Source: Hyphomicrobiales bacterium
GTDB lineage: Bacteria > Pseudomonadota > Alphaproteobacteria > Rhizobiales > RI-29
Reading direction: 5' to 3'
Length of the DNA stretch: 64,000 nt
NCBI GenBank assembly: GCA_016125495.1
Contig: WGLQ01000001.1
Location: 62,001-126,000, forward strand
The translations under genes and the position numbers were made by a program. The stretch's first letter is position 1, and each line of letters opens with the position of its first letter. Shown here one piece after another: positions 28,481 to 32,165 of the stretch. The notes beneath the pieces are model-generated. The model did not search any database and had not been told where the DNA came from. It saw only the letters and a list, made by a program, of their open reading frames with translations.

Positions 28481-29332
28481 TCAAGCCGAGCGCAGCGGTC
28501 TGGCGAGCGCCCCGACCAGAGCGAGCACCTTCTCGACGGTTCCGGCTCGCACGCGGCCCGCTTCATCGAGGTTGTCGGCGATGATGTTGACCAGCGCCGA
28601 ACCGACCACCACGCCGTCCGCGACCGCCCCGATGGCAGCCGCCTGCTCGGGCGTCTTGACGCCGAAGCCGACCGCGACGGGCAACGGCGTTGCCGCCTTG
28701 ATGCGCGCGACCTGCGCTCCGACCTTGGCCGGGTCCGGCGCGGCCGTGCCGGTGATGCCCATGATCGAGACGTAATAGACGAAACCCGAAGTATTGTTCA
28801 GCACCTTCGGCAGCCGCTTGGCATCCGTCGTCGGCGTCGCGAGCCGGATGAAGTTGAGCCCCCGGGCGAGCGCTGGCAGGCAGAGTTCCTCATCCGTCTC
28901 CGGCGGCAGGTCGACGACGATGAGACCGTCGACGCCAGCCGCCACCGCCCGCTCGAGGAAGACGTCGACGCCCATCCGGTAGATCGGGTTGTAATAGCCC
29001 ATGAGCACGATGGGCGTTTCGGAATCGCGCGCGCGGAACCGCCCCACCATGTCGAGCGTCTTGACGAGCGTCTGGCCGCCCTTGAGCGCCCGAAGGGATG
29101 AGGCCTGGATCGCCGGCCCGTCCGCCATCGGATCGGAGAACGGCATGCCGAGTTCGATGACGTCGGCTCCGGCACCAGCGAGCCCCGCAAGGATGGCCTC
29201 TGACGTCGCGAGATCGGGATCACCGGCGGTGACGAACGTGACGAGAGCCGGCCGCCCCTTGGCCTTCAGCTCCCTGAACCGGCGATCGATGCGTGTTTCG
29301 CCGCCGCCTGCGCCGTCCGACCCGTCCGCCAT
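28481..29332 (-). CDS. trpA: Tryptophan synthase alpha subunit
   Basis: Cleaves indole-3-glycerol phosphate to indole, which is channelled to TrpB. The 283-residue TIM barrel shows [19 protein letters not shown] with the catalytic acid, the [15 protein letters not shown] strand, [12 protein letters not shown] and [16 protein letters not shown] 29332 is preferred; an earlier ATG at 29362 is possible. In related genomes trpA follows trpB closely. Here about 1.6 kb of other DNA separates them, so trpA may have its own promoter or depend on read-through. Confidence 0.95.
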
Positions 29333-29615
29333 ATCGTCATCGACCCCGGTATGAGTGCCCATCCGCCAGACGGCAGCCCCGCACGGGACCGCGCAACCGC
29401 ACCTCCCGCCCATCGCCGAGGCCTAGCGCGAACCCCGCGAGCTTGCAAGCAGACCGCCGGCTGATCCGAATGCGGGCTGGCGTGCTCTTCCGGGGCGGCG
29501 CGAAACCACGCCCTCACCAACCGCGTGCGATTCCCGGACCAAGGTCGCCGGCCGGCCTCTCGCCGTTTCAGCCGAAGACCGACAACACGATGGAATTGAA
29601 AGGGAAATGAGACCG

Positions 29616-29828
29616 ATGACCATCCGCAATCGACTGACATTCGTCGCCGGCGTCGCCATCGCCACCGCCATGGGCTCGGCGAGCCTTGCGGGTTCGGCCG
29701 AGGCGTTCTATGCCTGTGCCGCCTACGCCGACAGCGCCGTGCAGCAGAACCAGCGAAACGAGCGGCTCGGCTGCGGTTACCACGGCATCCGCTGGCACAA
29801 CTGGCACGAAGGCCACGCGTCCTGGTGA
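29616..29828 (+). pseudogene. Small secreted Cys-containing protein interrupted by in-frame TGA
   Basis: A 70-codon frame with a clear signal peptide (hydrophobic core FVAGVAIATAMGSASLAG, likely cleavage after SAEA) and a short mature part YACAAYADSAVQQNQRNERL then GCGYHGIRWHNWHEGHASW. It stops at TGA 29826-29828, but the same frame continues for 25 sense codons (RSVNWSIARAEMQRRELKLA, then QCRFN) to a second TGA at 29904-29906. The continuation reads as protein and supplies another cysteine. The TGA sits where a TGC cysteine would be expected after a Trp. A nonsense mutation, a sequencing error, read-through or selenocysteine are all possible. ATG 29616 has AGGGAA ten bases upstream. Confidence 0.55.
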
Positions 29829-29941
29829 CGGTCCGTCAACTGGTCGATCGCCCGCGCCGAGATGCAGCGCCGCGAACTGAAGCTCGCCCAGTGCCGCTTC
29901 AATTGATGGCGTAGGGCGATCCGAGGCGAAACAAGGAAACC

Positions 29942-29966
29942 GGAGCCGGAACCCCGCCTCGGCTCC
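29942..29966 (+). terminator. Hairpin after the small secreted-protein gene
   Basis: GGAGCCG (29942-29948) and CGGCTCC (29960-29966) pair with an 11-base loop, 36 bp after the second stop of the small secreted-protein frame. No T-tract follows, so termination is tentative. Confidence 0.35.
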
Positions 29967-29984
29967 TACATGCCCCCGACCCCA

Positions 29985-30041
29985 CCTACATCGCCCGCCC
30001 GAGGTGCTCGGCGACGGCGAAGATGTCCTTGTCGCCGCGCC
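29985..30041. repeat. Direct repeat copy 1: displaced copy of the trpB 3' end
   Basis: This 57-bp segment is identical, base for base, to 30935-30991, which encodes the last 18 codons and stop of trpB. The copies are 950 bp apart in the same orientation. Copy 1 is not part of any intact gene. The arrangement matches the displaced att site left when an element integrates into the 3' end of a gene and restores it. Confidence 0.9.
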
Positions 30042-30051
30042 ACCTACGAAG

Positions 30052-30098
30052 CGAGGGGCGGCCCGAATCATCAATAGTCACAATATCTTCGCCCCTCG
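30052..30098 (-). terminator. Inverted repeat spanning the stop codon of the winged-helix gene
   Basis: CGAGGGGCG (30052-30060) and CGCCCCTCG (30090-30098) are perfect 9-bp arms flanking the TGA stop at 30071-30073. The large loop and lack of a T-tract make a plain terminator doubtful; it may instead mark an end of the element or a structured 3' end. Confidence 0.3.
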
Positions 30099-30478
30099 TG
30101 AGTAATGAGGTAGGCTCCATCACCAATTCGCTCAATAAAGCCGCGTTGAACATAGTGGTGTAGCTGGGCCCTCACAGAAGATCGCGATACTTCCAGCCCG
30201 TTTTCATGCGCAAAAGCAAGAATATCATCCACGGATACTGGTTGGGGCGATCGGAGGACGATAAAATTTAGAACCGAAGCCCACTTCTCCGACATTCCCC
30301 TGACTTTGTTTTCGAAGGGAAGGGGAATCTGTGCCGCCTCAGATTGCGCCACTGCGAGGCGTTCACGCAATTCGACTAGCTCAGCTCTGATCTTTGAAGC
30401 CTCGTCGATGGCGCGCTGCAGCCGCAACTCCGTGTTGTGGATCAGCCGCAGAAGTCTCTGTTCTCTCTTGGACTGCAT
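30071..30478 (-). CDS. Winged-helix protein with N-terminal coiled coil
   Basis: A 135-residue protein of unknown family. Residues 1-45 (RLQRAIDEASKIRAELVELR) form a predicted coiled coil. Residues 58-132 look like a winged helix: KWASVLNFIVLRSPQPVSVD, DILAFAHENG, a recognition-helix-like SRSSVRAQLHHYVQRGF, and the wing IERIGDGAYLITHEG. A regulator of the divergent gene is the simplest guess. Starts at GTG 30577 and ATG 30553 also exist; 30478 was chosen because the upstream part is unlike protein and a TAAAAT hexamer and a CTCCGC-N7-GCGGAG dyad (30499-30517) lie just before it. Codon use differs from the GC-rich neighbours, suggesting transfer. Confidence 0.6.
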   Translation of the reverse strand: MQSKREQRLLRLIHNTELRLQRAIDEASKIRAELVELRERLAVAQSEAAQIPLPFENKVRGMSEKWASVLNFIVLRSPQPVSVDDILAFAHENGLEVSRSSVRAQLHHYVQRGFIERIGDGAYLITHEGRRYCDY

Positions 30479-30568
30479 AACAAACGCAAATTTTACGGCT
30501 CCGCAGATTTCGCGGAGCTTGCGCACCGAGGATACGCGGTGTAACCTTACCATTGGGCTAACGAAGAA

Positions 30569-30712
30569 GGGCTGCACGTTGCCGCGTGCAGCCCCTCAAT
30601 TGGCCCAAGCGGAGAAGGCCCGCCTCAGCTCTTACAAAACGAATCATATCAAGTTTTGATTCGGGGGTCGAGACCTTCTCCATCATCTCAACTCCTTGAT
30701 GGAGAACCAACA
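30569..30712. promoter_or_regulatory. Divergent control region with nested inverted repeats
   Basis: Between the winged-helix gene and the 61-codon gene lie several dyads. GGGCTGCACG/CGTGCAGCCC (30569-30594) has a 6-base loop. GGAGAAGG (30611-30618) pairs with CCTTCTCC (30674-30681) and encloses CGAATCA (30640-30646) with TGATTCG (30657-30663). CTCC-N5-GGAG (30691-30704 region) overlaps the ribosome binding site of the 61-codon gene. Together they look like operators or a structured leader in a divergent promoter. Confidence 0.5.
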
Positions 30713-30898
30713 ATGAACTACTTGCTTTCTGCTCGGCTGCCCCTCGGCACGCGCCGGAGGACGGGAGAGGTCTGCCCAGAGAGTGGCGTGTGGCGCTCTG
30801 ATGACTCTCCCAGCACGACTGCCCCCATTGCGAAGGGCAATAGGATGCCGCCCCATAATAACAGGGCGGTCTTCTGGATCCTGATCCAACACGCGTGA
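30713..30898 (+). CDS. Small 61-residue protein of unknown function
   Basis: A short gene starting at ATG 30713 with GGAG nine bases upstream. The product has a Gly-Glu-Val-Cys-Pro-Glu-Ser-Gly-Val-Trp-Arg centre (TGEVCPESGVWR), then PSTTAPIAKGNRMPP, and ends AVFWILIQHA. The pattern of a Cys-Pro turn, a Trp and an alternating hydrophobic end suggests a compact beta fold. I have a general memory of similar short bacterial proteins but cannot name a family. It is divergent from the winged-helix gene inside the repeat-bounded island, so the two may form a regulator-target pair. Confidence 0.55.
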   Translation: MNYLLSARLPLGTRRRTGEVCPESGVWRSDDSPSTTAPIAKGNRMPPHNNRAVFWILIQHA

Positions 30899-30904
30899 CA
30901 TGGC

Positions 30905-30936
30905 GGGGGCGGAGCACAATTGCTTCGCCCCCCGCC
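30905..30936. terminator. GC-rich hairpin immediately downstream of trpB
   Basis: A near-perfect GC-rich inverted repeat, GGGGGCGGAGC against GCTTCGCCCCCC, closes on ACAATT and lies directly after the trpB stop at the inner edge of the repeat-bounded island. It could end trpB transcripts and would then isolate trpA. Confidence 0.4.
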
Positions 30937-30991
30937 TACATCGCCCGCCCGAGGTGCTCGGCGACGGCGAAGATGTCCTTGTCGCCGCGCC
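30935..30991. repeat. Direct repeat copy 2: 3' end of trpB
   Basis: Identical to 29985-30041 over 57 bp. It contains the trpB TAG stop (30936-30938) and the codons for the C terminus ending EHLGRAM. Sequence on both sides differs from copy 1: G against A before it, and C against A after it. Confidence 0.9.
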
Positions 30992-32165
30992 CGCAGAGGT
31001 TCATGACGAGCAGCTTGTCGGGGCTGAGTGTCGGGGCGAGCTTTTTCACGTAGGCGAGCGCGTGGGAAGGCTCCAGCGCCGGGATGATCCCCTCCGTGCG
31101 GCAGCAGAGTTCGAAGGCATCGAGTGCCTCCTTGTCGGTGATCGAGACGTAGGAAACGCGCCCCGTGTCCTTCAGCCAGGAATGCTCGGGCCCGATCCCC
31201 GGATAGTCGAGCCCGGCCGAGATCGAATAGCCATCCTTGATCTGCCCGTCGGCATCCTGCAGCAGATAGGTGCGGTTGCCATGCAGCACGCCCGGCTCGC
31301 CACCGTTGAGCGAGGCGCAGTGCTCGCCGGTCTCGATCCCCTTGCCCGCCGCCTCGACGCCGTAGATCGCAACCGAGGCGTCGTCCAGGAAGGGATGGAA
31401 AAGGCCGATCGCGTTCGAGCCGCCGCCGATGCAGGCAACGAGTGCGTCCGGCAAGCGCCCCTCGCGCTCCAGCATCTGCTCGCGCGTCTCCTTGCCGATC
31501 ACCGACTGGAAATCGCGCACCATCGCCGGATAGGGGTGCGGTCCCGCCGCCGTGCCGATGATGTAGAAGGTGCTCTCGACGTTGGCGACCCAGTCGCGCA
31601 GCGCCTCGTTCATGGCATCCTTGAGCGTGCCCGTGCCGGCCGTCACCGGCTTGACCTCGGCGCCGAGCAGCTTAATGCGGAAAACGTTCGGTTTCTGGCG
31701 CTCGATGTCGTGCGCGCCCATGTAGACGACGCAGGGCAGCTTGAAACGCGCCGCCACCGTCGCGACGGCGACGCCATGCTGGCCGGCCCCGGTTTCCGCG
31801 ATGATCCGCTTCTTTCCCATCCGCCGGGCGAGCTGGATCTGGCCGAGGCAGTTGTTGATCTTGTGGCTGCCCGTGTGATTGAGCTCGTCGCGCTTGAAGT
31901 AGACTTTCGCCCCGCCCAGTTCCTCGGTCAGGCCCTCTGCGAAATAGAGCGGGCTCGGCCGCCCGCCGTAGTGGGTCATGAGGTCGGCGAGTTCGCGTTG
32001 GAAGACCTCGTCGCCCTTGGCCGCCTCGTAGGCCTCCTCGAGCTCGAGGATCAGCGGCATCAGGGTCTCGGCGACGAAACGCCCGCCGTAGATGCCGAAA
32101 TGGCCGCGCTCGTCCGGCCCCGTGCGGAAACTGTTGGGCTGCTGCTGGGAGAGCGGATTGGCCAT
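30936..32165 (-). CDS. trpB: Tryptophan synthase beta subunit
   Basis: The PLP enzyme that joins indole and serine to make tryptophan, 409 residues. PLP lysine Lys102 is in HTGSHKINN, the phosphate-binding loop is GGGSNAIG, and the substrate region [10 protein letters not shown] is intact. It starts 11 bp after trpF ends, so trpF-trpB are co-transcribed. Its last 18 codons and stop form one copy of a 57-bp repeat whose second copy lies 950 bp downstream; the coding sequence itself is complete. Confidence 0.97.

Follow-up and report, generated by a model that had tools for sequence, protein, structure and literature searches.

Behind the trpB gene of this Hyphomicrobiales bacterium lies a compositionally foreign insert that is flanked by a duplication of the 3' end of trpB itself. 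At least three such events, the trpB insert among them, are seen in this genome; the one at trpB is most likely the scar of an insertion and no island unique to that gene. We put the probability at roughly one half that a single gene was inserted here with long target duplication, by way of recombination.

The repeat pair was located in the window, by which we mean the whole 64 kb stretch of DNA that was analysed. A reading made from the sequence alone had noted that 29985–30041 and 30935–30991 are identical over 57 bp. This perfect duplication is confirmed, and with one mismatch allowed it extends to 62 bp (29980–30041 and 30930–30991; 98.4% identity), the mismatch being located directly behind the trpB stop codon. 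No other exact direct repeat in the window reaches 20 bp, so chance is excluded. By alignment, the gene-proximal copy (30930–30991, minus strand, with 30935–30991 as its exact part) is comprised of the last 56 bases of trpB, including the stop codon, and 6 bases downstream. The distal copy (29980–30041, minus strand), likewise delimited by the repeat alignment, is 950 bp further downstream of the true trpB end and 648 bp ahead of trpA. The intact target gene trpB is on the minus strand at 30936–32165, encodes 409 aa and matches PF00291 (PALP, E 4e-41). trpA, also on the minus strand at 28481–29338, matches PF00290 (Trp_syntA, E 3e-92); its start is our choice within an ORF that is open to 29413. 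These two matches bear out the earlier identification of the second copy as the true trpB 3' end and of the first as a copy displaced to a position between trpB and trpA.

Between the copies is an insert of 888 bp (30042–30929) with a G+C content of 0.553, that is 55% against about 68% in the flanks; 200 bp windows off the island have values of 0.62–0.74. The insert has no terminal inverted repeat. It is also single copy: the sequence-only reading had proposed to look for the inner 0.9 kb with other flanks, and a sequence search of the genome found no second copy. No further copies of the 62 bp site are present in the genome either, the next best match being 36 bp at 87%. Outside the 62 bp the alignment diverges immediately on either side which, together with the single-copy state of the insert, speaks against the repeat being part of a larger segmental duplication. 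Interpretation as a DDE transposon or IS element fails, as there are no terminal inverted repeats and the duplications seen, at 57–90 bp, are not short. Rfam gave no match in 29300–31200 at E up to 0.1.

Only one convincing gene is present inside the insert, a minus-strand ORF at 30071–30577 that encodes up to 168 aa, or 135 aa if translation starts at the ATG at 30478. An AlphaFold model built from the single sequence predicts, with a mean pLDDT of 84, a 45-residue coiled-coil helix together with a winged helix-turn-helix. All family matches of this cargo gene are weak (MarR_2, E 8e-4; the regulator family phrog_2440, E 1e-6; AbiEi models, E 2e-4 at best), and a fold search of the PDB with the model returned nothing at E of 0.001 or below. 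Short peptide patterns found no cargo homologues in the genome-contig or viral-contig collections, and none were found in plasmids. Weak matches are present in 8 of 396 other genomes of the order, the best with 29% identity. This best relative (genome G227, locus L017, 1276–1926) is found in an AT-rich stretch directly behind what appears by eye to be atpC and is perhaps another gene-end insertion; 3.4 kb of that locus contain no exact repeat longer than 13 bp.

The interior had been described as about 0.9 kb with two small genes and no recombinase. Its size stands, as does the lack of a recombinase among the insert ORFs in searches of Pfam, PHROGs and NCBIfam, but the second gene is unsupported. 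A possible 61 aa ORF at 30713–30898 on the plus strand, part of an 80 aa ORF, is doubtful and has no Pfam match. Apart from the cargo gene, four small ORFs were searched, three in the island and one beside it. With a cut-off of E 1, Pfam and NCBIfam matched none of them; PHROGs gave a single weak match (E 0.05), to one of the four. A G+C-rich hairpin with 10 bp arms, read from the sequence, is found within the insert, with trpB on one side of it and the cargo gene on the other (30569–30594, minus strand). It could possibly terminate trpFB transcription, and it is absent from the output of a terminator scan. Outside the insert, between the displaced copy and trpA, there is a small secreted-type ORF on the plus strand (29607–29904). 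This ORF has 73 aa up to an in-frame TGA at 29826–29828 and the same frame is open for 25 codons beyond, so that it is probably a nonsense-interrupted gene; there is a weak paralogue-like match to it at C4:248622 (E 1e-3).

Is trpB the only gene of this genome with such a scar? Direct repeats 250–6000 bp apart were sought in 120 stretches that, with the window, cover 2.44 of 4.05 Mb (60%). Seventy pairs of at least 40 bp were found, and after sorting by eye three with at least 95% identity remain. Besides the trpB pair, these are a sister insert at the end of a Tad/VWA pilus gene on contig C4 (repeat of 84 bp, 95.2% identity, spacing 886 bp) and another at the end of an enoyl-CoA hydratase gene on contig C14 (90 bp, 96.7%, 1596 bp). 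Every one of the three repeats spans the stop codon of its gene. The interior G+C contents for trpB, Tad and enoyl-CoA hydratase are 0.553, 0.592 and 0.631 against 0.68, 0.65 and 0.69 in the flanks, and the two copies differ by 1, 4 and 3 mismatches, respectively. In the Tad repeat the four mismatches, TAG/TAA among them, all fall on third codon positions and are synonymous. Three ORFs from the two sister interiors, searched against Pfam, have no match above the cut-off. The repeats hold no detectable common motif (in pairwise comparison the score is reached by 81, 223 and 448 of 500 shuffles), the insert ends share nothing beyond shuffles (43 to 200 of 300 reach the score) and terminal inverted repeats are found in none of the three inserts (162 to 247 of 500).

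Pairs left out were, for one part, long and diverged, for example the tandem paralogues at C4:371–378k. Likewise omitted, at 92% identity or more, were the repeat-rich spacer at C14:38k (partly 95–96%), the repeat clusters at C14:20.8k and C15:151–155k (C15:151k partly 95–96%) and the pilin paralogues at C2:1 (by eye). The spacer (C14:38208–39225, L247) contains several repeats of 66–202 bp with 77–96% identity around what appears by eye to be a small GIY-YIG-type nuclease gene. As a control, 80 loci of other prokaryotes (929 kb) were searched for exact blocks of at least 30 bp at the insert spacing; exact blocks were used because a search at identity of at least 92% returned nothing, even for the relative G016 described below. 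Blocks of 31 and 34 bp were present in two of the 80 loci and none reached 35 bp. The rate of this genome predicts 1.1 such repeats in the control, with a probability of 0.32 for none, and the comparison therefore does not establish an enrichment here.

The genome studied here is the sole representative of its family among the genomes compared. TrpB is matched in 383 and TrpA in 386 of the 397 genomes of the order, this one included. Among the matches listed, both genes are found in 79 genomes and on one contig in 75, with distances taken from match end to match start and hence slightly overestimated. In 52 of these 75, again among the matches listed, trpA follows trpB within 110 bp; wider junctions are 111–330 bp in ten, 331–1000 bp in ten and over 1000 bp in two (G048 and G219). 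As a rule the junction is tight in the order, and extra DNA is not rare. The earlier claim that trpB and trpA are normally adjacent holds for most of the genomes measured in the order but not for the present locus, in which the gap would be about 0.65 kb even without the insert because the secreted-type ORF sits between the genes. A DUF559 gene is located between trpB and trpA in G361 (L035, 968–1414), where 2.5 kb contain no exact direct repeat of at least 15 bp, and the trpB–trpA gap of G048 (L028) contains a Uma2 gene. An apparent 12 kb insertion in G387 was ruled out, as trpA is upstream of trpB in reversed order.

Second trpB ends were searched for with a 40-residue C-terminal TrpB query in 60 genomes around G016 and in 270 genomes of the class. 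Matches weaker than E 0.08 aside, a second fragment adjoining trpB is present among the 60 only in G016 and G048; G024 and G043 also gave second matches, and these genomes carry three and two TrpB genes, respectively. The class search gave any match in 191 of the 270 genomes, the other 79 being uninformative, and two matches in G000, the genome studied here, as expected, and in G429, G557 and G654, which belong to one genus (second positions not listed). An exact codon pattern matched 236 of the 397 genomes, with two or more matches in G016, G024, G289 and G378; it misses the displaced copy of the window itself and is therefore not sensitive. Exact repeats of at least 30 bp at the trpB end are found in two of 20 trp loci, again G016 and G048. 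A TrpF-assisted scan of genome contigs yielded 80 loci, with a TrpB match in 59 that reaches the C-terminus in 52. None of those 52 has a separate TrpB-end fragment, and seven loci of the scan have a second, distant full-length TrpB relative.

The TrpB of G016 is the top-scoring one among the other genomes of the order (86% identity). In G016 an exact second copy of 64 bp of the trpB end lies 870 bp downstream. The genes between the copies encode a Phd/YefM antitoxin (E 2e-7) and a PIN-domain protein (E 1e-8), and a CCDC90-like gene is found between the displaced copy and trpA. On the insert side the 64 identical bp are followed by 36 bp at about 75% identity (27/36, by hand); at the divergence rate of these 36 bp, zero changes in 64 bp would have a P of about 1e-8. 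The limits of the duplication differ from those in the window, so we treat the two events as separate. An array of three copies in G016 was considered and dropped: the third match comes from contig C353, where overlapping contig ends reveal another allele of the displaced copy, and two copies remain. The overlapping ends of contigs C353 and C122 (L156 and L157) are two diverged alleles, and the assembly apparently mixes strains. Behind its trpB, G048 contains a 1083 bp tandem unit in which the trpB end and a Uma2-family gene are present twice (the second Uma2 copy by eye). It was set aside as an independent case, the repeat including the Uma2-family gene and looking like a tandem gene duplication. 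In the stretch with this unit (L028, 1320–3080) a DUF559-like fragment, seen by eye, runs into a diverged trpB-end copy.

Insertion with long target duplication was reportedly first described by Nobusato, Uchiyama, Ohashi and Kobayashi in 2000. Some restriction-modification systems, according to an extract of PMC3874152, insert with long, variable target duplications of the order of 100 bp and are not linked to known elements. Extracts of two further papers suggest such an insertion for one Helicobacter restriction-modification system (PMC4978471) and cite the original paper (PMC3031569). As far as these extracts describe them, the known systems and ours share a cargo of one or two genes, the lack of a linked mobile element and variable direct duplications of the order of 100 bp. 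Here the duplications are of 62, 84 and 90 bp, both target sequence and length vary, and no transposase, integrase or IS is linked. The cargo is different, being a winged-helix gene in the window (orphan ORFs in the sisters) and a Phd/YefM–PIN pair in G016 and not restriction-modification genes. Additionally, all three of our cases span stop codons, and they are drawn from the repeats of one genome, whereas the known cases in the extracts are based on the comparison of related genomes. The case in the window works like insertion with long target duplication. We do not file it as an outright member, because its cargo is something other than a restriction-modification system, and for an empty site there are only distant relatives to go by, most of which have a single trpB end and a tight trpB–trpA junction.

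How might such an insertion have come about? A foreign segment with the winged-helix gene would have entered directly behind trpB and brought a further copy of the trpB 3' end, leaving trpB whole. The evidence for insertion is that three inserts of one build are present in 2.44 Mb. Since two further gene ends, unrelated to that of trpB, show the same build although their repeats are longer and no site is common to them, a process using any available gene end fits better than a trpB-specific integrase. Most likely this would be recA-type or repair recombination rather than the work of a dedicated recombinase. For example, a small DNA circle, or a DNA that had been circularised, with the cargo and 60–90 bp of homology to the gene end may have undergone one crossover with that end. 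We prefer this single-crossover route within the reading as a long-target-duplication insertion, and taken overall we hold it only tentatively. In E. coli, insertions with duplications were put down to single crossovers with a circular plasmid that had been shortened; duplications were detected there by PCR in 56 of 60 clones, and sequencing of 14 gave lengths of 109–950 bp (extract of PMC3240628). Direct duplications of a homologous gene end and the lack of a site-specific recombinase are features of both settings, but there, in the same extract, the duplications are 109–950 bp and experimental, and here they are 57–90 bp and natural (PMC3240628).

The synonymous mismatches of the Tad repeat, a small sample, hint that one copy came from the working gene of a relative. 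The mosaic of 64 identical and 36 diverged bp in G016, also a small sample, would be as expected if a crossover or gene conversion had taken place. Of the six codons that differ within those 36 bp, however, five are nonsynonymous (by hand), and drift of a dead copy plus gene conversion would account for this as well as a donor gene. The crossover route also has its weak points, as the incoming DNA must already carry the gene end, the origin of which is unexplained, and four synonymous mismatches are few. That the direction of the event was insertion is taken from distant relatives. The position at gene 3' ends would follow from selection, because a duplicated end keeps the gene intact. A likely effect would be the uncoupling of trpA from the trpFB transcript.

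The sequence-only reading had taken the feature for an island placed at trpB by an integrase. The foreign insert and the restored and displaced gene ends stand, but not a trpB-specific, integrase-moved element, given the unrelated sister inserts, the different limits in G016 and the finding of no integrase with a trpB-type site in this genome or in the viral contigs. A single trpB-specific mobile family was dropped as the main reading on the unrelated sister repeats and because no second copy, second site or matching integrase was found in the genome or the viral contigs. Could the feature nevertheless be a CIME-like remnant of an integrative element, or a minimal satellite? In that case a tyrosine integrase would have acted on the trpB 3' end, attL and attR would be left, and the integrase would have been lost or supplied in trans. 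We regard this as rather doubtful. A restored gene end with a displaced one is the classical picture of integration, and attL/attR-like repeats do flank the insert. IMEs with tyrosine recombinases are described in an extract of PMC5704250 as having repeats of generally 8–60 bp and as using the 3' ends of housekeeping genes, with CIMEs as decayed forms that keep attL and attR without integration genes. The 57 bp of the exact repeat fall within this range and, like a CIME in that extract, the trpB locus has a restored gene end and a retained displaced copy and is without integration and transfer genes. Different from such elements, no parent element, integrase or common att site was found in the genome, the viral contigs or 13 trp loci read by eye, the insert is just 0.9 kb, and the sister repeats of 84 and 90 bp are unrelated, longer than 60 bp and would need other integrases.

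A look for genome-encoded tyrosine recombinases, as had been proposed, gave five matches to PF00589, and there is one serine-recombinase match. None of the five is on the contig of trpB and the insert is itself without a recombinase; of the three read by eye, one is like the housekeeping Xer and two adjoin ParA-like genes. The second trpB 3'-end duplication, in G016, would be in keeping with an integrase, but its repeat limits are not those of the window, and the 62 bp site is found nowhere else in the genome studied. Two exact patterns detected no TrpB-end fragment in the viral contigs, which also speaks against this origin; of 14 pattern matches there none is TrpB, and 11 read as nearly one same other protein. 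No integrase was seen by eye beside trpB in 13 of the 20 trp loci. Targeted literature searches returned, in the extracts available, nothing relevant on trpB as an attachment site, and one paper found had used trpB for strain typing. The integrase islands at dusA, in an extract of PMC4482086, likewise use the end of a protein-coding gene and displace the original end. They differ in their common integrase gene, 21 bp attachment repeats, size of 4.8–185 kb and location at the 5' end of dusA (PMC4482086).

Improbable, in our view, is an origin without any target-duplicating insertion, either by tandem duplication of a segment including the gene end and subsequent deletion or by replacement through ordinary homologous recombination with a relative. 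The 1083 bp unit of G048 demonstrates that the trpB end can be duplicated with its neighbour, and extra trpB–trpA DNA is common (more than 110 bp in 22 of 75 genomes among the matches listed, one genome with reversed order excluded). In the window, however, only the trpB end is duplicated, with both sides diverging at once beyond it, and the single-copy insert is unlike both neighbours in composition. A false second trpB end from misassembly or strain mixture, to which the 36 contigs of the assembly, the mere 57 bp of exact repeat and the overlapping alleles on the two contigs of the fragmented G016 assembly might point, is highly improbable, as the copies differ in all three pairs, each pair is well inside its contig and the interiors are compositionally distinct.

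When single genes enter intergenic spacers with neither a transposon nor an integrase at work, long gene-end duplications are a fossil of the event. The three cases at unrelated genes show that scanning for repeats is a simple way to uncover such scars, and that these can tell site-specific insertion apart from insertion by recombination. What gives the trpB case its value is that the build recurs in one genome, and a wide scan is worthwhile for that reason. In addition, the trpB insert splits a usually tight operon, so that changed regulation of trpA is testable. It is conceivable, and here we speculate, that this lineage repeatedly gains single orphan genes as recombinase-free units of about 0.8–1.5 kb behind genes, each with a fresh 60–90 bp copy of the gene end. 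This would be a cassette-like route of gene acquisition without integron, transposon or integrase, along which toxin-antitoxin, nuclease-like and regulator cargo may travel.
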